A DNA stretch of 64,000 nucleotides from Bosea sp. BIWAKO-01. Its GTDB lineage: Bacteria > Pseudomonadota > Alphaproteobacteria > Rhizobiales > Beijerinckiaceae. Below the pieces are notes generated by a model. That model was given only the letters and a program-made list of their open reading frames with translations, did not search any database and was not told the DNA's origin. This document shows, piece by piece, positions 35,156-48,949 of this stretch. The stretch covers positions 2,287,501-2,351,500 of the forward strand of contig NZ_BCQA01000001.1 in the NCBI RefSeq assembly GCF_001748145.1. The letters run 5' to 3'. Both the position numbers and the translations under genes were made by a program. The stretch's first letter is position 1; each line of letters starts with the position of its first letter.

Positions 35156-35989
35156 TCAAGCGGCTGCGTTGGGGCGGTGCTGCTGGGGCAGGAGGAAGGG
35201 CAGGCCGGCGGCGGGCGCGCGGCTGAAACTGAGGTCGACCTTGAAGACATTGCGCAGCAAGGCGTCATCCAGCGTTGCTGCGGGCGCCCCCTGGGCGACG
35301 ATGTGGCCGCGGTCCATCACGACGAGGTGGTCGGCATAGGTCACGGCGAGATTGATATCGTGGAGCACGATCAGCACCGCCACGCCGCGCGCCGCAATCG
35401 CGCGGGCCATATCGAGCAGGGCGAGTTGATGGCAGAGATCGAGGCTGGCGATCGGCTCGTCGAGGAAGAGGGTCTGCCGCGCAGCGACGCTGCGACCGGC
35501 CTCGAGCTGACAGAGCACGCGCGCGAACTGCACGCGCTGCTGCTCGCCACCCGACAAGGTCTGATAGCGGCGCGCTGCGAGCTCGGCGACGCCGGCCGAG
35601 GCCAGGCATTCGCCGACGAGGGCTTCGCGGCGCTGACGCGACAAGGCGCGCCCGACACCGTCCACGCCGAGGCGCGCGACCTCGTAAACGCTGAAGGGAA
35701 AGGCGAGCCGCGTGTGCTGCGCCATCACAGCGCGCTGGCAGGCCAGGCGCCAGGACGGGATGCCGGAGAGGCGCTCGCCGTCGAGCAGGACCTCGCCATT
35801 GGCAGGCTTCAATTCGCCGGTGACCAGCTTGAGCAGGGTCGATTTGCCGGCGCCGTTGGGGCCGATCAGGATTGTGGTCTTGCCCGGCTTGAGATCGAAC
35901 GAAGCCTCGCTGACCAACGCCCGCCCGCCGACCATGAAGCTCAGGGAACGGCCCGACAGGATCGGCTCGCCATTGATTGGGTCAGACAT
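35156..35989 (-). CDS. hmuV: Heme ABC transporter ATP-binding protein HmuV
   Basis: 277 residues with Walker A GPNGAGKST, signature LSGGEQQRVQFARVLCQL, Walker B TLFLDEPIASLDL and switch VLHDINL. The signature-box LSGGEQQRVQFAR is characteristic of HmuV-type heme ATPases. ATG 35989 overlaps hmuU by 8 bases; a GTG 9 bases earlier is possible. It drives heme import into the cytoplasm with HmuU and HmuT. Confidence 0.95.
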   Translation of the reverse strand: MSDPINGEPILSGRSLSFMVGGRALVSEASFDLKPGKTTILIGPNGAGKSTLLKLVTGELKPANGEVLLDGERLSGIPSWRLACQRAVMAQHTRLAFPFSVYEVARLGVDGVGRALSRQRREALVGECLASAGVAELAARRYQTLSGGEQQRVQFARVLCQLEAGRSVAARQTLFLDEPIASLDLCHQLALLDMARAIAARGVAVLIVLHDINLAVTYADHLVVMDRGHIVAQGAPAATLDDALLRNVFKVDLSFSRAPAAGLPFLLPQQHRPNAAA

Positions 35990-37091
35990 CGAGACCATCC
36001 GCGCGGCGCAGCAGGAGCCAGAGGAAGAACGGGGCGCCGAGTGCTGCGGTGACGATACCGATCGGCAATTCGGCCGGGGCGACGATCAGGCGGGCGACGA
36101 TGTCGGCGGCGACGAGAAGCGTTGCGCCGCCGAGCGCCGAGAGGGGGAGCAGCAACCGGTGGTCGGGGCCGATGGCGAGGCGGATCAGATGCGGCACGAC
36201 GATACCGACGAAGCCGATCACGCCGGCCGAGGCGACACTGGCGCCGACGGCAAGGGCCACCAACAGGATCGCCAGCGCCTTGATGCGCTGGACCGGGATG
36301 CCGAGATGATAGGCTTCCGCCTCTCCGAGCATCAAGGCGTTCAGTCCGCGTGCCAGCAGCGGCACGGCCAGGAGAAGCGGCAGGACGATGGGCGCGATGA
36401 CCACGAGCTTCGTCCAGCTCGCGCCCCCAAGGCTGCCGAGCGACCAGAAGGTCAGGTCGCGCAGCTGCCGGTCATCGGAAATGAAGGCGAGGACGCCGGT
36501 CAGCGCGCCGGCGAGCGCACCGAGCGCGACACCGGCGAGCAGCATGGTTGCGACCGAAGTGCGGCCCTGACGGGTCGCAATCAGATAGAGGGTCAGGGTC
36601 GAGATCAGGCCACCGCAGAAGGCGCCGAACGGAAGCGCTGCAAAGGGCAGCTTCATCGTCAGGCCGGCGAGGAGCCGGTCACCGAGCACGATGGTCGCAG
36701 CCGCTGCCAGGCCGGAGCCCGCCGAGACGCCGACGAGGCCGGGATCTGCAAGCGGATTGCGGAAGAGCCCTTGCATCAGAGCTCCGGAAATCGCGAGTGC
36801 AGCCCCGACGAGTGCCCCGAGCAGCACGCGCGGCAGGCGGATATTGAGGACGACGAGCGCGTCTCGCCCGTCCAGCAGGGCGGTCTCGCCCGTCAGCCTG
36901 GCCCAGAGGATCTCGGCGACCCGGCCGGGCGGAATCGAGAACGCGCCTTGCCCTACGGCCACAAGCATCAGCAGGCCGCACAGCAGAACAAGGCCGGCAA
37001 TGACCAGAGCGGCCTGCCGCCGTTGTCTGGCCGCGAAGCTGGCGAGCGCGGTCGTGGCCATTGCGCCGGCCGGACGGACGGCGAGCGTCAT
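35982..37091 (-). CDS. hmuU: Heme ABC transporter permease HmuU
   Basis: 369 residues of the FecCD/BtuC permease class with about ten helices. Conserved blocks include RLPRVLLGALVGAALAISGA followed by LMQGLFRNPLADPGLVGVSA and the coupling region GFVGIVVPHLIRLAIGPDHR. It overlaps hmuT by four bases (ATGA) and hmuV by eight. Confidence 0.95.
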   Translation of the reverse strand: MTLAVRPAGAMATTALASFAARQRRQAALVIAGLVLLCGLLMLVAVGQGAFSIPPGRVAEILWARLTGETALLDGRDALVVLNIRLPRVLLGALVGAALAISGALMQGLFRNPLADPGLVGVSAGSGLAAAATIVLGDRLLAGLTMKLPFAALPFGAFCGGLISTLTLYLIATRQGRTSVATMLLAGVALGALAGALTGVLAFISDDRQLRDLTFWSLGSLGGASWTKLVVIAPIVLPLLLAVPLLARGLNALMLGEAEAYHLGIPVQRIKALAILLVALAVGASVASAGVIGFVGIVVPHLIRLAIGPDHRLLLPLSALGGATLLVAADIVARLIVAPAELPIGIVTAALGAPFFLWLLLRRADGLDV

Positions 37092-38044
37092 GGCGCAGCG
37101 GCGGTCTTGAGCGGCGGGATCGCGGCCTCGGGGTAGAGCGCGGCCATCAGGTCGCGGGCTGCTGCCGGTGTGCGCGGCCCGAAACCGAGCAGGTAGAGGC
37201 CATCCATCCTGATGAGCGCCATCTTCGCCGCGGCCGGAGTCTGCGAGAAGGTCGGCATGGCGAACACATCGTCAGGCGATGCATTGTGGCTGTTGCTGTT
37301 GCGCATCATCAGGATCACGTCGGGCGCGGCGGCGATGATGGCCTCGTCGTTCAGGGGCTTGAAGCCCTCGACCGCGGTCGCGGCGTTGACGCCGCCGGCC
37401 ATCTGGATGATCGCATCGGCAGAGCTGTTGCGACCGCCGACCAGCACGCGGCCGTTCTGGAGCGACAGGACGAAGAGCACGCGTTTCTTGGCCGGCAGGC
37501 TGGAGCGTAGCGCCTGAAGTTCGTCGAAACGCAGCTTCGTCTGCTGCGCAAGGCGTGCCGCGGGTTCGGCGGCACCTGCAACGGCGCCAATCGCCTGGAT
37601 CTTGGTGACGACGCCATCGGGCGAGTTGTCTTCCGGGATGCTGGCGAGGCGCAGCCCGGCTTCGTTGAGCAGCGAGACCGCCCCGGGAGGCCCTGCGCCC
37701 TCGAGGGCAATGACCAGCGAGGGCTTCAGGGAGAGCACGCCTTCGGCCGAAAGTGCACGGACATAGCCGACGCTGGCCTTGTCGCGCAGGGCTTCGGGCG
37801 GGAACTGGCTGGTGGTGTCGACACCGACGATCCGGTCCTGCAGGCCCAGAGCGTAGAGCACTTCGGTGATCACGCCGCCGACAGCAACGATGCGATCCGG
37901 AGTCTGTGCCTGGGCCGGGCCCGGGAGCATGGACGGGGCAAGGAGGCCGGCGGCGGCCAGAAAGGTCAGTCCGATCGCGGCACCCAGCTCGCGTCGATGC
38001 GGCCGTGCGCCGAGCGGCCTCGAAGGCGCAAGGGGGCTTGGCAT
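37088..38044 (-). CDS. hmuT: Heme ABC transporter periplasmic binding protein HmuT
   Basis: 318 residues. Signal region near GLTFLAAAGLLAPSMLPG with cleavage around QAQTP. The mature start RIVAVGGVITEVLYALGL and VGVDTTSQFPPEA are typical of HmuT-type class III receptors. It is the first gene of hmuTUV, transcribed away from the TonB receptor gene. ATG 38044 was chosen since upstream codons are poorly conserved. Confidence 0.94.
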   Translation of the reverse strand: MPSPLAPSRPLGARPHRRELGAAIGLTFLAAAGLLAPSMLPGPAQAQTPDRIVAVGGVITEVLYALGLQDRIVGVDTTSQFPPEALRDKASVGYVRALSAEGVLSLKPSLVIALEGAGPPGAVSLLNEAGLRLASIPEDNSPDGVVTKIQAIGAVAGAAEPAARLAQQTKLRFDELQALRSSLPAKKRVLFVLSLQNGRVLVGGRNSSADAIIQMAGGVNAATAVEGFKPLNDEAIIAAAPDVILMMRNSNSHNASPDDVFAMPTFSQTPAAAKMALIRMDGLYLLGFGPRTPAAARDLMAALYPEAAIPPLKTAAAP

Positions 38045-38344
38045 GATGGTCTCTCCGCTTCCCGGGTTGCGCGCCAATGGAAGATGGGATCGGAATCGAT
38101 CTCGTCTAGCCAAGAGCGCGCGACATCTCGTCGTCTGAAGGTGATCTAAAGCAGATGTCAGTTTTTAATTATTCTAAGAAGGATAAAGCTTAAGCGTTGT
38201 TGACGGTGATATTCAGCTTTACTACAAAGGGTCAAGAGCGGCGCGCCGAGACGGTGCGACTGCCCGCGCCAGCCAGCCACACGCAGCCCGCGTCCAGCCA
38301 GCCAGTCGCTGCAAAATCTTCAGGTCAGGTTCGGGGCTGGACGT
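38045..38344. promoter_or_regulatory. Divergent heme-locus control region
   Basis: This 300-base AT-richer gap between hmuT and the receptor holds no gene. A candidate sigma-70-type promoter for the receptor is TTGACG (38200-38205), 17-base spacer, TACAAA (38223-38228). Just upstream are the small palindromes TTCT-A-AGAA (38172-38180), which contains an Irr-type TTCTAA half-site, and GCTTAAGC (38188-38195). They are good candidates for iron-responsive control (Irr, RirA or Fur); none is proven. Two CCAGCCAGCCA runs occur in the leader (38269-38279 and 38294-38304). Confidence 0.55.
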
Positions 38345-40417
38345 ATGAATTCTCACGCCGCGCTGTTGCGCGCTTCCGTTTCCGTGGCTGCCATCGCGCT
38401 ATGGTCGCTTGGCGCTCATGCTCAATCCCAGCCGGCGCCAGCCTCCGCTGCTACGCCGATCGCATTGGACGAGATCACGGTGACGGCGAGCAAGCAGGAA
38501 GAGCGCGCGATCGATGCGCTCGCCTCGGTCTCGGTGATGACGCGCAACGAGATCCGGTCGCAGCAGCCGCAAAGGCTCGGCACCCTCCTCAACCAGATGC
38601 CCAGCGTTTCGACGCAGGAAAACCCGAACGATCCGGCAACCGCGATCAATATTCGCGGTCTGCAGGACTTTGGCCGCGTCGCGGTGACGATCGACGGGGC
38701 GCGCCAGAATTTCCAGCGTTCCGGCCATAATGCCAATGGCGCCTTCTTCCTCGATCCCTCCTTCGTGCGCGTCATCGACGTGACGCGCGGCCCGGTTGCC
38801 AACGTCTACGGTTCAGGCGCGATCGGCGGTGTCGTGTCCTTCGAGACGGTCGACCCCAAGGATATTCTCCGGCCCGGCGAGCGCGCCGCGGTCGAGATCG
38901 GTGGGACCGGCGTGTTCGCCCGCCAGTCCGGCGCCTTCGGCAATGCCATCGGGGCTTTCCGGCCCAATGATGTCGTCGAAGGCCTCGTCGGGCTTTCATT
39001 CCGCTCGCTCAATCCCTATCGCGACGGCGGCGGTACGAAGATTGCCGATAGCGGGCAGGACCTGGTTTCAGGTCTCGGCAAGATTGTGATCACGCCCGGC
39101 GAAGGCCAGGAACTCAAGCTCGGTGGCCAGTACCAGCGTTACGATTTCTCCAATGGCGTCGGCACCTCGACGGCACCGCGCCGCGACAACGAGGTCACGA
39201 CGCAGAATTACACGGCACGCTACAGCTTCTCGCGACCCGATATCCCGTGGCTGAACCTGAACATCAGCGCCTATTCGACCTCGACGGACACCGACCAGAC
39301 CCAGATTTCCGGTACGGGCGCGGCTCTTGGCGCGAAGCGCTATTTCAAGGTCGAGACCAACGGGTTCGACATCCACAACACGATGAAGTTCGATCTTGGC
39401 GCGGCGGCGCTGAACCTGAGCTATGGCGCCGACTGGTTCGAGGATCGTGTCCGGACCAGCGACCCGGTCGGCAATGGCGACGAGACGACGCCGTCCGGCA
39501 AGCGCAGCGTCTATGGCGGGTTCGTGCAGAGCCACGTCAAGTATTCGATCTTCGATCTGATCGGTGCGCTGCGCTACGACGCCTATGAACTCAGCGGCGG
39601 CCGGACCTCTTCGGATGGCAACCGCATCTCGCCCAAGCTGACGCTCGGCGTCACGCCGCTGCAGGGCTTGCAGGTCTACGGCACCTATGCCGAGGGCTAT
39701 CGGGCGCCGTCGGTGACCGAAACCCTGGTCGACGGACCGCATCCGGCACCGGCCAGCTTCATCTTCCGGCCGAACCCGAACCTGAAGCCGGAAGTCGGCA
39801 AGACGCTCGAGGCCGGCGTCAATCTGAAATACGACAACATCCTGAGCGAAGGCGACCGCTTCCGCGGCAAGCTCGCGGTCTACAGGAACGACGTGAAGAA
39901 CTATATCGACGGCGTCTTCGTCGATCCCGGCGCACCCTGCGGCGCACCGGTCCCCGGCGCCTGCAACGACGCGTTCTTCACCTATGAAAACGTCGCCAAG
40001 GCGCGCATCACCGGCTTCGAAGCCGAACTCGGCTACGACGCGAAGCGCTGGTTCATGACCCTTGCCGGCTCGACCACTCGCGGGGACAACAGGACGCTGA
40101 ACCAGCCGCTGCAGTCGATCTATCCGGACAAGCTGATCCTCAGCAGCGGATTGCGCTTCTTCGAGGAGAAGCTCACGGTCGGCGCGAGGCTGACGCTGGT
40201 CGACGATCAGAAGCGCCTGCCGCCTGGTGCGCAGGTGATCGCGAGCAAGGCCTATGCGCTGGTCGATCTTTACGCCGACTACAAGATCACGCCCGATGCC
40301 CGCGCCTATGTCACGCTCGAGAATGTCGGCGACGTTCGCTATCGCCGCTACCGCGACGGTGACAACAGCCCGGGCTTCGTCGGCAAGATCGGCTTCTCGA
40401 CGCGCTTCGGCACATGA
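38345..40417 (+). CDS. TonB-dependent heme/hemoglobin receptor (HmuR/BhuR-like)
   Basis: 690 residues. Signal peptide to about residue 26 (AHAQS), TonB box-like DEITVTASK, plug domain with RGLQDFGRVAVTIDGARQNF and GSGAIGGVVSFET, then a 22-strand barrel ending in an aromatic strand (GFSTRF). Near the middle are YRAPSVTETLVDG, the FRAP-type motif of heme receptors, and NPNLKPE, the partner motif. It passes heme across the outer membrane to HmuT. Followed by the oxygenase gene at 78 bases. Confidence 0.95.
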   Translation: MNSHAALLRASVSVAAIALWSLGAHAQSQPAPASAATPIALDEITVTASKQEERAIDALASVSVMTRNEIRSQQPQRLGTLLNQMPSVSTQENPNDPATAINIRGLQDFGRVAVTIDGARQNFQRSGHNANGAFFLDPSFVRVIDVTRGPVANVYGSGAIGGVVSFETVDPKDILRPGERAAVEIGGTGVFARQSGAFGNAIGAFRPNDVVEGLVGLSFRSLNPYRDGGGTKIADSGQDLVSGLGKIVITPGEGQELKLGGQYQRYDFSNGVGTSTAPRRDNEVTTQNYTARYSFSRPDIPWLNLNISAYSTSTDTDQTQISGTGAALGAKRYFKVETNGFDIHNTMKFDLGAAALNLSYGADWFEDRVRTSDPVGNGDETTPSGKRSVYGGFVQSHVKYSIFDLIGALRYDAYELSGGRTSSDGNRISPKLTLGVTPLQGLQVYGTYAEGYRAPSVTETLVDGPHPAPASFIFRPNPNLKPEVGKTLEAGVNLKYDNILSEGDRFRGKLAVYRNDVKNYIDGVFVDPGAPCGAPVPGACNDAFFTYENVAKARITGFEAELGYDAKRWFMTLAGSTTRGDNRTLNQPLQSIYPDKLILSSGLRFFEEKLTVGARLTLVDDQKRLPPGAQVIASKAYALVDLYADYKITPDARAYVTLENVGDVRYRRYRDGDNSPGFVGKIGFSTRFGT

Positions 40418-40495
40418 GGACGGCAATGCCGTCCGGCATTGCCCATTTCCCGTTCAACCAAGCCAGCCAACAGCCAGCCAACTGAGGAAAACACC

Positions 40496-40843
40496 ATGTT
40501 CATCGCCATGAATCGCTTCAAGGTCGTCAAGGGAGAGGAGGCCGCGTTTGAGACGGTCTGGTCCTCGCGCAAGACCCGCCTCGACGAGATGAACGGCTTC
40601 ATCGCCTTCCGTTTGCTCAAGGGGCCGGAGAAGGAGGACCATACCCTCTATTCCTCGCACACGACCTGGGCCTCGAAGGAGGATTTCACGGCCTGGACGA
40701 AGTCCGACCAGTTCCGTGAATCGCACCGCAATGCCGGTCAGCCCCGCGCGACGCCGATGTATCTCGGCCATCCCGAGTTCGAGGGCTTCGAGACGGTGCT
40801 GAGCGAGGCCAATCCGCATTTGCCCCGCCAGGCGGCAGAGTGA
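40496..40843 (+). CDS. IsdG-type heme-degrading monooxygenase (HmuQ/HmuD-like)
   Basis: 115 residues of the antibiotic-biosynthesis-monooxygenase fold. The catalytic triad of IsdG-type heme oxygenases is seen at matching positions: Asn6 (MFIAMNRF), Trp67 (DFTAWTKS) and His77 (RESHRNAG). It opens heme and releases iron. ATG 40496 has TGAGGAAA upstream. A CAGCCA-rich leader precedes it (40461-40482). hutX follows 11 bases later. Confidence 0.9.
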   Translation: MFIAMNRFKVVKGEEAAFETVWSSRKTRLDEMNGFIAFRLLKGPEKEDHTLYSSHTTWASKEDFTAWTKSDQFRESHRNAGQPRATPMYLGHPEFEGFETVLSEANPHLPRQAAE

Positions 40844-40854
40844 GGGAGGACGGT

Positions 40855-41397
40855 ATGTCGATCTCGCAGGCGAGTGCCGCGGCGGTCCAGGACCCGTCAA
40901 CGGTAGACCCGATGGAGCGCGTCAGGCAGGCGCTGGCAGCCAAGCCGGATGGCGTGATCGAGGCCATCGCCCGCGAGGTCGGCGTGCCGACGCTCGCGGT
41001 GCTGGAGGCAGCACCGGCCGATCAACGCCATTTCATTGCAGCCGAGCGCTTCGAGGCGCTGTGGCAGGCGCTCTCGACCTGGGGCGATGTGCTCTTCATC
41101 GTCCACACCGCCGATATCGTGCTGGAATGTGAAGGCTCGCTGCCCGTCGGCTCCTTCGGCCACGGCTATTACAACATCCATGGCGACAGCCCGATCGGCG
41201 GACATATCAAGGCTGGCAACTGCACGGCGATCTATCTGGTCGATCGGCAGTTCCATGGCCGCCGCTCGTGCTCGGTCCAGTTCTTCAATGCTGCTGGCGA
41301 AGCGATGTTCAAGGTCTTCGTACGGCGCGACGAGAAGCGGGAGCTGATTGCCGAGCAGGTGGCGCATTTCGAAGGCCTGAAGACGCAATTTTCCTGA
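40855..41397 (+). CDS. hutX: HutX/ChuX-type cytosolic heme carrier
   Basis: 180 residues of the ChuX/HutX family, with GVPTLAVLEAAP, WGDVLFIVHTADIVLECEG and YYNIHGDSPIGGHIK as the conserved core. Members bind heme in the cytoplasm and hand it to oxygenases. ATG 40855 follows GGGAGG; a GTG five codons earlier would lie on the oxygenase stop. It completes the import operon. Confidence 0.92.
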   Translation: MSISQASAAAVQDPSTVDPMERVRQALAAKPDGVIEAIAREVGVPTLAVLEAAPADQRHFIAAERFEALWQALSTWGDVLFIVHTADIVLECEGSLPVGSFGHGYYNIHGDSPIGGHIKAGNCTAIYLVDRQFHGRRSCSVQFFNAAGEAMFKVFVRRDEKRELIAEQVAHFEGLKTQFS

Positions 41398-41648: not shown

Positions 41649-42332
41649 ATGAAGAACCAGATCATTGCCGGGGCCGCATCCACCAGACCAGGGGCTCGTC
41701 TGTCTGCGAATGCGATGCTCGAGAACGCGGCCTCGCTCCAGGACTGGCGTCGGCAGGTGGCCGATCTCTACGCGGCGGTCCGGGCCATGCCGGCGGAAGC
41801 GGGCTGGGGACAGTGGCGCGATGTGCGCGACCGGCTGTTTCGCGAGCACCGGCAGTCGCCGCTTGCGGCCGCCCGGCGGCAAAGCTTCCGGGGCATCCGC
41901 TATTTCTCCTATGATCCGGCGCTGCGCTTCGAGGTCGGCTTGCGGCCGGCCGTCGGGCGCGAAACCATCCGGGTCGAAGCCGGAAAGGACGGCGCCATGG
42001 TGCTCAGGCCCTACGCACTGACCGACGGGCTGGAGGGCGCGCTCGGTCGGGAGCTGACGCTTTACTGGATCGAGGGTTATGGTGGCGGGACCTTCCTGCC
42101 CTTTGGCGATGCGAGCAATGGCGAGGAGACCTTTGCCGGCAGCCGCTACCTGCTCGATACGATCAAAAGCGCCGATCTCGGCGTGACATCGGAGGGGCGG
42201 ACGATCCTCGACTTCAATTTCGCCTATTACCCGTCCTGCGCCTATTCCGAGGCCTGGGTCTGCCCATTGTCGCCCATCGAGAATCGCCTGCCCGCCGCGA
42301 TCCGTGCGGGCGAACGAAATCCCCTCAGTTGA
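41649..42332 (+). CDS. DUF1684 protein
   Basis: 227 residues. The C-terminal half holds the DUF1684 core: GGGTFLPFGDASNGEETFAG, LDFNFAYYPSCAYSEAWVCP and ENRLPAAIRAGE. These bacterial proteins are predicted to bind metal or a ligand but have no assigned activity. ATG 41649 was chosen; the preceding 31 codons are not conserved. No signal peptide, so likely cytoplasmic. Confidence 0.85.
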   Translation: MKNQIIAGAASTRPGARLSANAMLENAASLQDWRRQVADLYAAVRAMPAEAGWGQWRDVRDRLFREHRQSPLAAARRQSFRGIRYFSYDPALRFEVGLRPAVGRETIRVEAGKDGAMVLRPYALTDGLEGALGRELTLYWIEGYGGGTFLPFGDASNGEETFAGSRYLLDTIKSADLGVTSEGRTILDFNFAYYPSCAYSEAWVCPLSPIENRLPAAIRAGERNPLS

Positions 42333-42461: not shown

Positions 42462-43361
42462 ATGAAACTCATCAGCATGCGCTTCGCGAAGACGGTCTGT
42501 ACTGTTGCCGCGATGATCGTGGTCGGGCTGTCGGCGGCAGCGGCCCAGACGATCAAGATCGGTTCCAAGAATTTCACCGAGCAGTTCATCGTTGCCGAGC
42601 TTTATGCCGCTGCCCTGGAGGGCGCGGGCTTCAAGGTCGAACGCAAGATCAATCTCGGCGGCACGCTGGTGGCGCATGAGGCGCTGAAAAGCGGCGCGAT
42701 CGACCTTTATCCGGAATATACCGGGACTGGCCTCAACGCCGTGATGAAGGCGCAGGGTGTGACCGAGACCGACCCGGAGAAGGTGCGCGGCATGGTCAAG
42801 GCCTTCTACGAGAAGGAATTCAACCTGACCTGGCTGAAGCCCTCCGGTATCAATAACGGCTATGCCATCGTGGTGCGGCCGGAGACCGCGAAGGAATACA
42901 ACCTCAAGACCCTGACCGATCTCGGCAAGGTCTCGTCCAAGCTTCGGCTCGGCGCCGGCACCGAGTTCGTCGATCGCCGTGATGGCATCGCGGGCCTCAA
43001 GGAGGTCTATGGCGCCGAGTTTGCCGAGTTCAAGCAGTTCGCGGCGCTGCGGCTGCGCTACGAGGCGCTGAACCAGAAGCAGGTCGACATCGCCAACGGC
43101 TTCTCCACCGACTGGCAGATTGCGGCGGAGAAGTTCGTGGCGCTGGACGACGACAAGTCGCTGTTCCCGCCCTATTTCCTCGCCCCGGTCGTGCGTCAGG
43201 AGATTGCCGGCAACGCCAAGGTCGTCGAGATCCTCGAGAAGGTCGGGGCAGTGCTCGACAATGCGACGATGCAGGAGCTGAACCGACAGGTCGAGGTTGA
43301 CAAGAAGGAGCCGCGTGTCGTCGCCGCCGCCTTCCTGAAAGCCAAGGGTCTTGTCCGCTAA
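42462..43361 (+). CDS. Periplasmic quaternary-amine-type binding protein (OpuBC/OsmF/EgtU-like)
   Basis: 299 residues. Sec signal (VCTVAAMIVVGLSAAAAQ), then IKIGSKNFTEQFIVAELYAA and KSGAIDLYPEYTGTGLNAVM, the signature of the OpuAC-type receptors for glycine betaine, choline, carnitine and, as EgtU, ergothioneine. Substrate-cage residues cannot be assigned without structure. It is followed by a MIO-less lyase homologue, then two permeases and an ATPase, all on one strand with overlaps. Confidence 0.93.
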   Translation: MKLISMRFAKTVCTVAAMIVVGLSAAAAQTIKIGSKNFTEQFIVAELYAAALEGAGFKVERKINLGGTLVAHEALKSGAIDLYPEYTGTGLNAVMKAQGVTETDPEKVRGMVKAFYEKEFNLTWLKPSGINNGYAIVVRPETAKEYNLKTLTDLGKVSSKLRLGAGTEFVDRRDGIAGLKEVYGAEFAEFKQFAALRLRYEALNQKQVDIANGFSTDWQIAAEKFVALDDDKSLFPPYFLAPVVRQEIAGNAKVVEILEKVGAVLDNATMQELNRQVEVDKKEPRVVAAAFLKAKGLVR

Positions 43362-43377: not shown

Positions 43378-44910
43378 ATGGAGCTGGTGCAACCGGCCCC
43401 TGCCGTCGTCATCGGAGCGGGGCTGCTTTCGATCGAACAGGTCCATGCCGTCGCGCATGGGTCTGTGCGGGTCGTGCTGGTTCCCGCACTGCTGGAGCGG
43501 CTGAGCGGGGCTCGCGCGGTGGTCGAGCGCAGTCTCGAACGTGGCGAGGCCGTCTATGGTTTGACGACCGGCCTCGGGGCTGCTGTGGACACGCGACTGG
43601 CGGCGGATCAGATCGCTGCCTTCCAACAGCGGGCCGTTCAGGCCCGGGCTGTCGGCGTCGGGCCTTGCCTGTCGCGGGGCGAGGTGCGGGCCATGCTGCT
43701 GGCGCGGCTTGCCGGTCTTGCGCAGGGCGCGTCGGGCATCTCGCCGGGCCTTGTCGGGACGCTCGCTGCGATGCTGAATTCCGGGCTTCATCCTGTCGTG
43801 CGACGCATCGGCTCGCTGGGGGAGGCCGATCTCAGCTCGCTGGCCCAGCTCTTCTTGCCGCTGACAGGAGAGGGTGAGGCCGAATTCGACGGAAAGATTC
43901 GCCCCGGTCGCGAGGCCATGTGCTTGGCCGGCATAGCGCTTCCGGCCCTTGGGCCGAAGGATGGGCTCGCATTGCTCAATGCCAATGCCGAGAGCGCCGG
44001 CCTGGCTGCGCTCGCGCTTCGCACCATGGCACTGGCGCTGCAGGCGCTGACGGCAGCAGGTGCACTCTCGCTGGAGGCTTACCGCGCCAATCTCTCGCCC
44101 ATCGCCAGCAATCTGGTCGCGCTTCGGCCGGTGCCGAGCCATGTCACTGGCGCGGCAAAGTTGCGCGAACTCCTGGCTGGGAGCGATCTCCTTGATGAAG
44201 GCGCTGCCAGCCGCGTGCAGGACCCACTGTCCTTTCGCTGCCTGGCGCCCGTGAACGGCGCCGCATGCGCCGCGCTCGATACGGCGCGCGCGCTCGTTGA
44301 AGTCGAGCTCAACGGGGCCGGCGACAGCCCGGCGGTGCTCATCACGGAGGATGTCCTGCGTTCGACCGTCAATTTCGACACGACGGCGCTTGCACTTGCG
44401 CTCGAGGGGCTCGGGCTGGCAGTCGCCCACGCCGCGACGATCTCGGCGTTCCGTATCATCAAGCTGATGTCGCCTGCGTCCAGCGGGCTGCCGCGCTTCC
44501 TGACCCGCCATGGTGGCACGCATGCGGGGTTTGCGACCACGCAGAAGACGACAGCAGCCCTGGAAGCGGAGATCCGCCATCTCGCCCTGCCACTCGGCCC
44601 GACGACCATGCCGGTTGCCGATGGTGTCGAGGATTACGCGCCGATGACGCCGCGCATTGTCGCAAAGACAGCCGTGATCGCCGAGCACCTGGCGCGGCTT
44701 GCTGCGATCGAACTCGTCGTGGCGGCCGAGGCCGCCGATCAGCGTGACGGCATCAGGCTCGGCGTCGGCACCATGCTCGCGCATGGCTTCGTCCGCGCCC
44801 ATGTCGCCCGGCTCGACGATGACCGGCCGATGGGGCGCGAGTTCGAGGTGCTGGCCGAACGCCTGGCGGCGGGAGAGCTTGCTGCAACGCTTTCGGACCC
44901 GCCAGCATGA
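43378..44910 (+). CDS. Histidine ammonia-lyase homologue lacking the MIO tripeptide (possible ergothionase-type C-N lyase)
   Basis: 510 residues, full length for HAL/PAL family proteins. The MIO region, normally GSVGASGDLAPL, reads GSLGEADLSSL at 145-155: the Ala-Ser-Gly that forms MIO is replaced by Glu-Ala, one residue shorter. Retained: Tyr60 (VYGLTTG), Arg in QDPLSFRC, Asn201 (GLALLNAN) and Glu in ALEAEIRHL. Changed: HAL His83 position and Tyr280 (now Leu). So it is not a canonical histidase. It is translated with a betaine-type importer. Treponema ergothionase is, to my knowledge, a MIO-less relative that eliminates trimethylamine; that is the best functional analogy here. Start ATG 43378. 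Confidence 0.85.
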   Translation: MELVQPAPAVVIGAGLLSIEQVHAVAHGSVRVVLVPALLERLSGARAVVERSLERGEAVYGLTTGLGAAVDTRLAADQIAAFQQRAVQARAVGVGPCLSRGEVRAMLLARLAGLAQGASGISPGLVGTLAAMLNSGLHPVVRRIGSLGEADLSSLAQLFLPLTGEGEAEFDGKIRPGREAMCLAGIALPALGPKDGLALLNANAESAGLAALALRTMALALQALTAAGALSLEAYRANLSPIASNLVALRPVPSHVTGAAKLRELLAGSDLLDEGAASRVQDPLSFRCLAPVNGAACAALDTARALVEVELNGAGDSPAVLITEDVLRSTVNFDTTALALALEGLGLAVAHAATISAFRIIKLMSPASSGLPRFLTRHGGTHAGFATTQKTTAALEAEIRHLALPLGPTTMPVADGVEDYAPMTPRIVAKTAVIAEHLARLAAIELVVAAEAADQRDGIRLGVGTMLAHGFVRAHVARLDDDRPMGREFEVLAERLAAGELAATLSDPPA

Positions 44911-45536
44911 CCTGGATCATTGAGAATTACGACCGCCTGCTGATCGCGCTCTGGGAGCATATCCAGCTCGTCGGCATCGGGCTCGCGATCTCGCTCGTCA
45001 TCGGCCTGCCGCTCGGGATCATCTCGGCGCGGCGGCCGAGCTTCTACCTCGTCGTGCTGTTGATTTCGGGCGCCCTCTACACGGTGCCGGCACTGGCGAT
45101 CTTTGCGCTGTTGATTCCCATCCTCGGGCTCGGCTTCGGTCCGGCGATCGTTGCGCTGGTGATGTATGCCTTGCTGATCATCATCCGGAACACGGCAACG
45201 GGTCTGCGCGAGATCGCGCCCGAGATCCTGGATGCTGCCGACGGCATGGGCTATGGCCGTTGGCGCCGGCTTTTCGCGATCGAGCTCCCGCTGGCGCTGC
45301 CGGTGATCATCGCTGGCATCCGCATCACGGTCGTCACGATGGTCTCGGTCGCGACCGTGGCCGCCTTCATCAATGCCGGCGGTCTTGGCGACATCATTTT
45401 CCAGGGCATCACCCAGGATTTCGGTGAGAAGGTCGTGGTCGGTGCGATCATGACTTCGCTGCTTGCCATCGCCTGCGACGAGAGCTTGCGCCGGCTCGAG
45501 CTCGGCCTGCGGGCGGCCCAGGCGGAGGGCGCCTGA
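44907..45536 (+). CDS. Betaine-type ABC transporter permease 1 (OpuBB-like)
   Basis: 209 residues with five to six helices. ProW/OpuB-class features are GLPLGIISARRP, RNTATGLREIAPEILDAADG (the EAA-loop helix) and GGLGDIIFQGI. Its ATG overlaps the lyase stop (ATGA), so permease and enzyme are co-translated. Pairs with the second permease to form the channel. Confidence 0.9.
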   Translation: MTWIIENYDRLLIALWEHIQLVGIGLAISLVIGLPLGIISARRPSFYLVVLLISGALYTVPALAIFALLIPILGLGFGPAIVALVMYALLIIIRNTATGLREIAPEILDAADGMGYGRWRRLFAIELPLALPVIIAGIRITVVTMVSVATVAAFINAGGLGDIIFQGITQDFGEKVVVGAIMTSLLAIACDESLRRLELGLRAAQAEGA

Positions 45537-46168
45537 TGCTTGGCTGGATCACCGCCAATCCCCGCATCTTCTGGACAGCGGTCGAGAACCACCTCTGGCT
45601 TTCGGGCGTCGCACTTCTCGCCGTGGTGCTGATCGCGCTGCCGCTCGGGCTTGCGCTGACGCGTCATCGCAGCCTCGCCAATTCGACGATCGCGATCGTC
45701 AACATCCTGCGCACCGTGCCGAGCCTCGCCTTGCTCGTCATCATGCTGCCCCTGCTCGGCACCGGCTTCCTGCCGTCAGTGGTGGCGCTGACACTCTATG
45801 GCCTGCCGGCTCTGCTGCTCAACACCTATACGGGCCTGAGTGAAGTCGACCGCGACATCGTCGAGGCGGCGCGCGGGCAGGGACTTTCGGATGCGCAGGT
45901 GATGACGCGGATCGAGATCCCGCTGGCGCTCCCGGTGATCTTTGCGGGCATCCGCACGGCTGCGGTGCAGGTCGTTTCGGCGGCGACGCTCGCGGCCTTC
46001 ATCGGTGGCGGCGGTCTCGGCGAGCTGATCACTGCCGGAATGGCGAATTTCAATTTTCCGCAGCTGATTGCCGGAGCGGTGGCGGTGGCCTTGCTCGCGC
46101 TGCTGGTCGAGATCGGTTTTGCGAGCGTCGAGCACGCCATGACGCGTTCCGCGCGAATGGGGGCCTGA
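45536..46168 (+). CDS. Betaine-type ABC transporter permease 2 (OpuBD-like)
   Basis: 210 residues, homologous to the first permease: LPLGLALTRHRSLANSTIAI, LLNTYTGLSEVDRDIVEAAR and GGGGLGELITAG. Its start overlaps the previous stop by one base (TGATG). A two-permease, one-ATPase set is normal for OpuB/OpuC and OsmF systems. Confidence 0.9.
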   Translation: MLGWITANPRIFWTAVENHLWLSGVALLAVVLIALPLGLALTRHRSLANSTIAIVNILRTVPSLALLVIMLPLLGTGFLPSVVALTLYGLPALLLNTYTGLSEVDRDIVEAARGQGLSDAQVMTRIEIPLALPVIFAGIRTAAVQVVSAATLAAFIGGGGLGELITAGMANFNFPQLIAGAVAVALLALLVEIGFASVEHAMTRSARMGA

Positions 46169-47124
46169 TGATCCGTCTCGAGAATGTCAGCAAGCTGTTC
46201 GCGGGCATCGCGCGCCCGGCCGTCGACAGCCTCGATCTTTCGGTGCCCGAAGGCCGGACCTGCGTGCTGATCGGCCCGTCCGGCTGCGGCAAGACCACGA
46301 CAATGCGGATGGTGAACCGGCTGATCGAGCCGAGTTCCGGCCGGATTATCGTCGAGGGCGAGGATGTAACCCAGGCCGATCCCGTGCTGCTTCGTCGCCG
46401 CATCGGCTATGTCATTCAGCAGGTCGGCCTGTTCCCGCACATGACCATCGCCGAGAATGTCGCGACGGTGCCCAAACTGCTGGGCTGGCCGGCCGAGAAG
46501 ATCAAGTCGCGCTCGGAGGAGATGCTGGCCCTGGTCGGATTGGAGCCCGCGCAGTTCCTTTCGCGTTACCCGCGCCATCTTTCCGGCGGGCAGCGCCAGC
46601 GTGTCGGGGTGGCGCGCGCCTTGGCCGCCGACCCGCCTGTTATGCTCATGGACGAGCCGTTCGGTGCGGTCGATCCGGTGGTGCGAGGACGCTTGCAGGA
46701 GGAGTTCGTCGCGATCCTGCGCCGGCTGAAGAAGACAGTGATCTTCGTCACCCATGACATCGATGAAGCGATCCGGATGGGCGACATCGTCGCCATCATG
46801 AAGGACGGCCGCCTGGTGCAGTATGACACACCCGACCGCCTGCTGGCGGCTCCGGCCGACGCATTCGTCGCCGATTTTGTCGGTGCTGACGCCGCGTTGC
46901 GGCGTCTCTCTCTGGTCAGCGCTGCAGATGCGGTCGAAGAGGGAGCGCCACAGGTTTCCGACCTGCGGCTTCCGGCATCGGCCAATCTGCGCAACGTGCT
47001 CTCTGCGCTTCTGACCGAGGGGCGAGACGGGGCGACCATCGTCGATGGCGACAGCCGGCCGCTGGGGCGCATCACGCTTGCGGCGATCCGGGCGCGCAGT
47101 GCCGGGCGCCCGGCCGAATCCTAG
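46168..47124 (+). CDS. Betaine-type ABC transporter ATP-binding protein (OpuBA/OpuCA-like)
   Basis: 318 residues. Walker A GPSGCGKTTTMRM, signature LSGGQRQRVGVARAL, Walker B VMLMDEPFGAVDPVV and switch FVTHDIDEAIRMGD. After about residue 255 is a short CBS-like tail (LTEGRDGATIVDGDSRPLGR), shorter than the paired CBS domains of OpuAA/OpuCA, so osmoregulation through CBS may be lost. Its TAG overlaps the CTA stop of the convergent gene. Confidence 0.92.
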   Translation: MIRLENVSKLFAGIARPAVDSLDLSVPEGRTCVLIGPSGCGKTTTMRMVNRLIEPSSGRIIVEGEDVTQADPVLLRRRIGYVIQQVGLFPHMTIAENVATVPKLLGWPAEKIKSRSEEMLALVGLEPAQFLSRYPRHLSGGQRQRVGVARALAADPPVMLMDEPFGAVDPVVRGRLQEEFVAILRRLKKTVIFVTHDIDEAIRMGDIVAIMKDGRLVQYDTPDRLLAAPADAFVADFVGADAALRRLSLVSAADAVEEGAPQVSDLRLPASANLRNVLSALLTEGRDGATIVDGDSRPLGRITLAAIRARSAGRPAES

Positions 47125-47945
47125 CCTGGCTGCCCATACCCGGCGGCTTCCGCCCTGCGTGCATCCTCGAGCAGCACGTCATAGGTGCCGCGTTCTATGG
47201 CTGCGAAACCGGAGAGCTTCAGGCGAGCCAGCAAAACCTGCGCCCGCGGCTGGACTGCAGCGTCGAGCAGCGCATCGCGAAGGTTTGCAAGTGGAGCCGC
47301 TTCCAGCGTGTCCGAGGCGACCAGGAGCGGCATCGGCCTTGGGAGCGTGGTCTCGATGATCCGCAGCCGTGCAGCGGTTTCAGGCTCATGCGCGAGCAAC
47401 AGGTCGTGAAAATACGAGTCGAGCGGACCAATATCGATTTCGTCGTTCAGCAGCGCGGCAATGACCCGGCGCGGCGTCAGAAGCGGGCCGATGCTTTGCC
47501 GGTACAGTGGCCCGGCCTTCCAATGGGGGAGCAGGTGGCTGCGCAACGCGTTGAAGCCGGACTGGGAGTGCTCGACCGTCCAGCCAAGGCGCTGGCCGAA
47601 GCTCCCGGCGAGCGTGGCGATCGGGCTTTCGGCACGGGTGACGAGATGAGTTGCGTAGAAGGGCCGTCCGCCCGCGAGCGCCGCGGCCCGGATCGGGGCC
47701 GCGATCGGCTGCACGGGAAAGCGACCGCTAGCGAAGGGGTAGCCGCAGATGAAGGCGAGGCCGAGATCGCCGCGTTGCCAGAGGTCCTCCAATGGAGCCG
47801 GTGCGGCGTGGTCGACGACTGTCAGCGGAACCCCCGAGTGGTTGGAGATCCAGGCGAACAGATCGGCCCAGGCAGCCCGAACCGCCGCGTTGACGGCATA
47901 CATCCGCGCATTCGCGACAAGGTGCGGCCTGGCAGGGTTCGTCAC
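47121..47945 (-). CDS. PhnD-like substrate-binding-fold protein without signal peptide
   Basis: 274 residues of the phosphate/phosphonate-binding-like fold: LANARMYAVNAAVRAAW-type start, LGLAFICGYPFASG, and LLNDEIDIGPLDSYFHDLLL. It lacks a signal sequence and starts with GTG overlapping the OCD-family stop (GTGA). A cytoplasmic ligand-binding or moonlighting enzyme role is more likely than an ABC receptor; phosphonate binding is not shown. No permease or ATPase is next to it. The gene ends on the same CTAG that ends the convergent ATPase gene. Confidence 0.72.
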   Translation of the reverse strand: MTNPARPHLVANARMYAVNAAVRAAWADLFAWISNHSGVPLTVVDHAAPAPLEDLWQRGDLGLAFICGYPFASGRFPVQPIAAPIRAAALAGGRPFYATHLVTRAESPIATLAGSFGQRLGWTVEHSQSGFNALRSHLLPHWKAGPLYRQSIGPLLTPRRVIAALLNDEIDIGPLDSYFHDLLLAHEPETAARLRIIETTLPRPMPLLVASDTLEAAPLANLRDALLDAAVQPRAQVLLARLKLSGFAAIERGTYDVLLEDARRAEAAGYGQPG

Positions 47946-48949
47946 GCGTAACGCAGCCTCTGGCCAATCCCCATGTGGCGGGCCTTCTCCAGCATGAAAT
48001 GGCCAAGAGCGATGTCGGAGAGCGAGAGCCCGCGATGCCAGAACAGGATCGTCTCGTCGTCGCTCTCGCGACCGGGTTTCAGGCCGGCGACGATTTCGCC
48101 CATCTCGGCATGAAGGGTCGCCTCCGAGAGCTTGCCGGCCTCGACATGGGCACGGAGCGCCCCGAACTGGCCCGATCGGCACTGGCCCCAGTCGTCGACG
48201 ACGAGCTTGCTCATGATATCGGTCAGCGAAAGCTCGACGGCGCTCATCGTGCCATAAGGCACGACGAAGGCGCCCGGCTTGATCCAGTCCGTCCTCAGCA
48301 GCGGCTCGGGAGCATCGAGGCGCGAGGCCTCGACAATGATATCGGCGCCCTCGACGCAGGAACGCCAGTCCTGGGTCACGGTGACGGGCTTGCCGAGATC
48401 AGCTGTGAGCCGTGTTCCGAAAGCCTCGCGGCTTTCCCTCCGGCGGGAATGCACCCGGATTTCGTCGAAGTCGAACAGCGAGTCGAGCAGGCGTACGTTC
48501 CAGTAGGCCGTGCCGCGTGCGCCGATATGCCCGAGCACCCTGGCACCCTTGCGCGCAAGGTATTTCGCGCCGATCGCGGTGACCGCGCCGGTGCGCATAT
48601 CGGTGAGATGGCTTCCGTCGATAATGGCCCTGGGCACGCCATTGGACGGGTCCATCAACAGGAGCAGGCCGAGCTCCGAGGGCAGGCCCTCCTTGTAGTT
48701 GTCGACGAAGTCCCCGATCACCTTGACGCCAGCCAGGTTGATCGGCGCACGAAATGCGCCCCTCAGCACGTTGAAATGACCGCTGCTGCCGCCTGGAATG
48801 AGGTGCATGCGTGGTTCGATCACGGTTTCCCCGCGTCCCTGCGCCGCCAATCCGGCCTCCACTGCCGAAATGATCTCCGGGTCGGTCAACCGAAGGGCCT
48901 CGACGTCCAGCGCATTCAGGAAATCGAGGTGGATGGGGGCGCGCGTCAT
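47942..48949 (-). CDS. Ornithine cyclodeaminase/mu-crystallin family protein
   Basis: 335 residues. The NAD-binding motif is in LGHIGARGTAYWNVRLL, with VNYKEGLP-type NYKEGLPSELGLLLLMDPSN and DMRTGAVTAIGAKYLARKGA as family blocks. Members are ornithine cyclodeaminases, alanine dehydrogenases or ketimine reductases. The motif GxGxxG is degenerate (GHIGARG). Start ATG 48949 was preferred to an upstream in-frame start. It precedes, and is coupled to, the PhnD-like gene. Confidence 0.85.
   Translation of the reverse strand: MTRAPIHLDFLNALDVEALRLTDPEIISAVEAGLAAQGRGETVIEPRMHLIPGGSSGHFNVLRGAFRAPINLAGVKVIGDFVDNYKEGLPSELGLLLLMDPSNGVPRAIIDGSHLTDMRTGAVTAIGAKYLARKGARVLGHIGARGTAYWNVRLLDSLFDFDEIRVHSRRRESREAFGTRLTADLGKPVTVTQDWRSCVEGADIIVEASRLDAPEPLLRTDWIKPGAFVVPYGTMSAVELSLTDIMSKLVVDDWGQCRSGQFGALRAHVEAGKLSEATLHAEMGEIVAGLKPGRESDDETILFWHRGLSLSDIALGHFMLEKARHMGIGQRLRYA

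Follow-up and report, generated by a model that had tools for sequence, protein, structure and literature searches.

Inspection of the window, the whole 64-kb stretch of DNA analysed here, revealed an importer operon that encloses a lyase gene and faces two further genes on the opposite strand:

42462..43361, + strand: periplasmic receptor of the OpuAC/OpuBC-EgtUC type, 299 aa (PF04069, 218 bits; PDB matches; residue comparison)
43378..44910, + strand: MIO-less trimethylamine-lyase-type protein (PF00221; PDB match 6s7j; alignments; tree)
44907..45536, + strand: ABC permease 1 (PF00528)
45536..46168, + strand: ABC permease 2 (PF00528)
46168..47124, + strand: ABC ATPase of the ProV/OpuCA type (TIGR01186, 323.5 bits, slightly below the cut-off of 326.6)
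47121..47945, - strand: AioX/PhnD-like oxyanion-binding-fold protein, GTG start (fold and Cys motif)
47942..48949, - strand: OCD/mu-crystallin family NAD(P)-type oxidoreductase (PF02423, 187.5 bits, over the gathering cut-off)

The genes for receptor, lyase, two permeases and ATPase follow one another closely, some of them overlapping. The receptor gene ends 16 nt upstream of the lyase, and the ATGA at 44907-44910 is common to the lyase stop and the start of permease 1, in agreement with the original prediction that the lyase lies between an OpuBC/EgtU-type receptor and the permeases with a four-base overlap. That prediction omitted the two genes of the system on the other strand (47121-47945 and 47942-48949), which are assigned to it by their conserved neighbourhood; both converge on the importer-lyase genes, and the GTG start of the AioX-like gene overlaps the OCD stop as GTGA. 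A DUF1684 gene (41652-42332) lies upstream of the receptor and is kept in 14 of the 80 loci compared (the best 80 of 281), near the Bosea type. Further upstream, a heme uptake and breakdown cluster (35982-41397) encodes a BtuC-like permease, a receptor, a TonB heme receptor, an HmuQ-type heme-degrading protein and HutX. Scans for RNA families and tRNAs gave no match in the window.

The frame at 43378-44910 is open and intact, as had been predicted, and encodes 510 residues, nearly all of which are covered by a PF00221 match of 401.6 bits. Residues 145-152 read GSLGEA-DL, compared with GSVGASGDL in the HutH of the same genome. The MIO tripeptide is replaced by Glu149-Ala150 with one residue deleted, exactly the change originally described, and Ala-Ser-Gly is absent in all of the 120 listed homologues (60-94% identity; 120 of 1523). 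The key residues are Tyr60, Arg90, Glu149-Ala150, Asn203, Leu284, Arg287, Lys390 and Glu418, and Leu284 of QDPLS is the Tyr-to-Leu change noted earlier in the QDPYS motif. Among the residues said to be retained, Tyr60 and Arg287 are in place, whereas the glutamate aligned with ergothionase Glu411 and HAL Glu414 is Glu418 in VEDYAPM; the Glu of ALEAE is a different residue, likewise retained. Lys390 of QKT, common to ergothionase and the window lyase, had been overlooked; it occurs in the lyases of all 80 loci (best 80 of 281), and positions 389-390 are QK in all 104 motif rows available for the 120 listed homologues. Against the HutH model TIGR01225 the protein scores 334.9 bits, below the cut-off of 539.15, and it misses the Ala-Ser-Gly MIO precursor. 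A canonical HutH or a pseudogene is ruled out by the loss of MIO, the intact frame and the 120 listed homologues of the same kind. The genome has its own HutH with Ala-Ser-Gly inside a hut operon, in which hutI and hutG were assigned by eye and the urocanase by PF01175. A third HAL-family protein of this genome (L003:1411-3042) has Ala-Ser-Gly and adjoins an amidohydrolase-like gene, judged by eye.

The best PDB match of the lyase is the ergothionase of Treponema denticola (6s7j, 248 bits; HAL, 212 bits), so that the MIO-less relative named in the original prediction is the nearest solved structure. That prediction would fall if the catalytic residues of ergothionase were absent, but the candidates for them, Tyr60, Asn203, Arg287, Lys390 and Glu418, are all present. 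We consider it highly probable, and well supported, that the protein is a lyase which lacks MIO and releases trimethylamine from a histidine betaine. HAL and ergothionase have His83 where Arg90 is found in the window and in 77 of the 80 loci (best 80 of 281); in HAL this histidine contacts the imidazole. Altogether 89 Arg90 rows and 8 His90 rows were inspected, among which at least three contigs are represented twice (L058/L129, L083/L128 and L104/L130). In a tree of 65 lyase rows, a Rhizobium/Mesorhizobium His90 group is nested inside the Arg90 group, and residue 90 has few independent changes, as Arg/His changed only twice (independent-pairs test, 2 pairs, p 1). When 394 genomes of another order were screened for His90 lyases, 11 of them showed similarity matches at 33-37% identity. 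Both the lyase residues and the gene neighbourhood are found again in several families of Alphaproteobacteria, in Gammaproteobacteria and in one metagenome contig of NC10, which argues against chance; within the genus, the window-type lyase was found in 11 of 37 genomes (E 1e-100 or better).

The OCD stands beside the lyase in 67 and a PhnD-like gene in 63 of the 80 loci (best 80 of 281), or, if only the 66 loci measuring 18 kb or more are counted, in 60 and 58. The receptor is present in 46/80 and 37/66, respectively, and some clusters have TRAP or TTT importers, which are not of the betaine type. On plasmid pRL12 of Rhizobium johnstonii the whole gene set lies on one strand behind a regulator named HutC. 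Among the enzymes of the set the OCD is conserved best, with about 67-77% identity outside the genus, and its nearest solved structures are alanine dehydrogenase and imine reductases. In the AioX-like protein, Cys59-Gly60-x-Pro62, Ser119-x-Ser121-Gly122 and Arg127 are invariant (numbering from the Leu at 47921); the coding region begins shortly before the first strand, and no signal-like stretch was seen by eye.

The link between OCD and lyase was examined in the family of the window, where a search of 199 genomes for the OCD gave 19 matches at E 1e-140 or better. The OCD-bearing sample comprised 14 genomes whose lyase status had previously not been looked up and four Bosea genomes chosen among those without a window-type lyase (n = 18); listed family genomes without an OCD match served as control (n = 18). 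A MIO-less lyase was found in 15/18 OCD-bearing and 1/18 OCD-lacking genomes (Fisher p 4e-6), where at least two of the OCD-bearing genomes (G845 and G932) coincide with earlier loci (L043 and L102) by contig positions, and other lyase types may be missed because the query was an Arg90 lyase. All 16 lyases have Arg at position 90. Counted by genus, the values are 7/9 and 1/15 (p 7e-4), three genera being represented on both sides. Of the 19 OCD genomes, the five outside the sample have the lyase as well. Among the OCD genomes lacking it, the assemblies G834 and G918 exceed 500 contigs, and G816 is not so fragmented.

Neither an OCD nor a PhnD-like gene adjoins the lyase in the 8 His90 MIO-less rows (7 distinct contigs). 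A strict rule that Arg90 equals OCD is nevertheless weakened from both sides, by His90 lyases with an OCD in Paracoccus (L162) and Polaromonas (L113) and by the Arg90 genomes of Labrys (G795 and G796) and the incomplete G801, which showed no OCD. The Paracoccus lyase shares a plasmid with OCD/PhnD, and the Polaromonas lyase combines His90 with Arg64. Elsewhere, OCD/PhnD pairs are accompanied by different importers and different MIO-less lyases, as in Paracoccus, Polaromonas and four Bosea genomes (G001, G008, G020 and G033); in the latter the importer is of the dipeptide (Dpp) type by gene layout alone, and the lyase is 41-42% identical to that of the window. Three of five plasmid records with OCD/PhnD (Terrarubrum, Rhodococcus and Cupriavidus) have no MIO-less lyase on that record, and the Rhodococcus record carries a normal HAL.

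The receptor has an N terminus that appears signal-like by eye, and its PDB matches are ProX, OpuBC-type receptors, EgtUC and sensors built from such receptors. Compared with the EgtUC ligand contacts given in PMC9732360, the positions K242, T275, T296, N339, Y341, E375, R379 and Y443 are retained. Contacts to the carboxylate and to the imidazole are kept, as is most of the cage, with K36, T89, N132, Y134, R172 and Y238 of the window receptor among the aromatic cage and carboxylate contacts. EgtU F293 corresponds to Y86 and Y419 to F214, the latter position being Ala in 20 of 49 family rows. The sulfur-touching positions are altered, Ile243 to Asn37 and Thr274 to Gly67, and the invariant Gly244 of EgtU is Phe in 49/49 family rows. 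These changes fit, and do not prove, a related ligand that may carry a different C2 group.

Genes related to sulfur and histidine were also found around the lyase. YeiH-type genes occur in 13 of the 80 loci (best 80 of 281), mostly in Rhizobium, as well as in the pRL12, Paracoccus and Polaromonas clusters; against the model cut-off of 232.6, the Polaromonas protein scores above (344) and those of R. pisi (142.5) and Paracoccus (149.8) below. In the window operon no YeiH was found, and elsewhere in the genome just two sub-threshold matches. In Salmonella, yeiH is needed for sulfite resistance according to PMC12880088. A HutC-like regulator is present in 23/80 loci (best 80 of 281), and the two such proteins scored reach 281 and 283 against the TIGR02018 cut-off of 220, but neither reaches the stricter cut-off of NF011575. 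In two Salinicola species, Brenneria and Paracoccus, the cluster has a complete or partial set of hut genes next to it.

The genome of the window has one urocanase and nothing over the thiourocanate hydratase cut-off (NF058530). Urocanase-family genes were found in 25/25 entries scored, of which at least two pairs come from one genome each, and are taken as HutU since their 675-696 bits are below the thiourocanate hydratase cut-off. Thiourocanate hydratase itself exceeds the cut-off in 2/25, Rhizobium setariae (His90) and one Arg90 Rhizobium. In the former it is encoded at L089:4182-5771 (1018 bits versus 930) near a His90 MIO-less lyase, making L089 a likely true ergothioneine locus. As a mark of every His90 lyase this enzyme was discarded, being over cut-off in just 1/8 His90 entries, at least two of which are one genome. 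Another HAL-family type without MIO, which reads GSVGY and lacks three residues, was observed in Salinicola (L058:5880-7511), where its hut operon includes a BCCT carrier, and in Rhizobium (L065:514-2064), where it has an OpuC-type importer of its own; the receptor of that importer is nearest to Lmo1422 and EgtUC. This type is a candidate hercynine lyase.

We propose that the operon serves the uptake and catabolism of a histidine betaine substituted at C2, with ergothioneine sulfonate as the likeliest substrate, a proposal as open to doubt as to belief. Removal of a C2 sulfonate by the OCD and the AioX-like protein, which we consider about evenly balanced in probability, best explains Arg90, both partners, YeiH and the Hut links taken together. 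Against it stand the failure to find YeiH in the window operon, the exceptions to the pairing of Arg90 with OCD, the TRAP or TTT importers of some clusters and a CoA-transferase set described below. The sequence itself shows the fold, the loss of MIO, the residues common to ergothionase, Arg90, the operon, its conserved partners and the Hut genes of the genome; we infer the substrate, its sulfonate, the roles of the two partners and the order of the steps as follows. The OpuC-type importer (42462-43361 and 44907-47124) would bring in the C2-substituted betaine. The MIO-less lyase would then eliminate trimethylamine, a good leaving group which would allow the reaction to proceed without the cofactor, and leave a urocanate still carrying the C2 group, with Arg90 contacting this group as an anion. 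The conserved OCD and AioX-like partners, together with YeiH in some clusters, suggest that one more group, most likely a sulfonate, has to be taken off C2. The OCD-family reductase would deliver hydride to C2 and, together with the AioX-like protein, strip the substituent, as sulfite in the case of a sulfonate. The urocanate formed would enter the Hut pathway, for which the genes are present in the genome. A three-protein desulfonation of histidine betaines, in which the MIO-less lyase, an OCD that attacks C2 of the imidazole and a periplasmic-receptor-fold protein that stays in the cytosol and bears the AioX Cys motif work together and the last of these serves as catalyst or carrier for sulfonate or sulfite, is put forward only tentatively and is itself doubtful.

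The original prediction had named ergothioneine, or else hercynine, as substrate. Its wider frame, a trimethylated histidine handled by an ergothionase-kind lyase and a quaternary-amine importer, holds up well, as ergothionase is nearest, most EgtU contacts are kept and some relatives stand beside hut or HutC-like genes. Its preference for ergothioneine itself does not. If the enzyme were a true ergothionase working with ergothioneine uptake, the OCD and the AioX-like protein would form a new route for thiourocanate, and both the nearest solved structure and the retained EgtUC contacts would be explained. However, Arg90 replaces His83, the receptor has Phe38 in place of the invariant Gly244, a change (G244F) that makes EgtU bind about 100-fold weaker according to the EgtU paper (PMC9732360), and thiourocanate hydratase is not over cut-off in the genome. 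This reading is therefore quite improbable, and for the same reasons we would not label the lyase an ergothionase.

Uptake of hercynine and its cleavage straight to urocanate, with Arg90 hydrogen-bonded to the imidazole, would suit the presence of a hut operon or of HutC-like genes near some relatives, the urocanase-family gene in every entry scored and the lack of a thiourocanate hydratase over cut-off in the window genome. It fits less well because no OCD or AioX-like step is needed, so that both proteins would be otherwise employed although the OCD is so well conserved; YeiH in some clusters also speaks against it, and hercynine has a better candidate in the GSVGY type of the Salinicola hut operon. 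We regard this reading as unlikely. About a quarter of the loci contain a CoA-transferase (19/80), SDR (20/80) and MaoC (22/80; best 80 of 281), for example a CoA-transferase, SDR and MaoC hydratase upstream of the HutC-like gene and lyase in Rhizobium L057:5895-9222. This set has no place in the proposed pathway and is unexplained by it. It would be accommodated by a non-imidazole betaine whose acrylate product passes as a CoA ester into beta-oxidation, as would the AMP-binding ligase, SDR and saccharopine-dehydrogenase-like gene of Arenibacterium. But no such set was detected next to the window-type Bosea loci (L027-L033), the HutC-like and hut associations speak against it, and Glu418 is retained as in HAL and ergothionase, leaving a substrate of this kind very unlikely.

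Genes for window-type lyases are named histidine ammonia-lyase in many public records, and a probable trimethylamine-releasing branch of histidine-betaine metabolism is thereby hidden by annotation. If the sulfonate reading of the operon is true, soil and plant-associated bacteria would recycle the antioxidant ergothioneine, in oxidised form, via one conserved locus, and Arg90 together with the OCD partner would be a usable, not a strict, mark to tell its lyase from ergothionase and HutH. A limited literature search gave no detailed description of a lyase pathway for ergothioneine sulfonate or hercynine, and PMC4621440 mentions an ergothionase homologue in a Methylobacterium genome with no further detail.

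The AioX-like protein resembles the AioX/ArrX oxyanion receptors in fold and has the Cys motif ICGYPF in common with AioX, whereas it has no apparent signal peptide and its gene overlaps that of the OCD. The receptor shares with EgtU (EgtUC 7txl and others) the receptor family and most ligand-contact positions; it differs in Phe38 for Gly244 and in the changes of Ile243 to Asn, Thr274 to Gly, Phe293 to Tyr, Tyr337 to Ile and Tyr419 to Phe. The lyase and ergothionase (6s7j/6s7q) have the HAL fold, the identical one-residue deletion of the MIO tripeptide, QDPLSFRC and the Lys of QKT in common, and Tyr53, Asn196, Leu277, Lys383 and Glu411 of ergothionase correspond to Tyr60, Asn203, Leu284, Lys390 and Glu418. 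Unlike ergothionase, the window lyase has Arg90 for His83, Thr64 for Arg57 and Val70 for Lys63, its operon has an OpuC-type importer, an OCD and an AioX-like protein, and its genome is without a thiourocanate hydratase over cut-off. The title of Yan, Huang and Zhang 2022 (ACS Catal) names a bacterial ergothioneine sulfonate catabolic pathway, which a citing paper ties to Agrobacterium radiobacter. The substrate in that title is the one proposed here for the window operon, and the published pathway may already include window-type enzymes.
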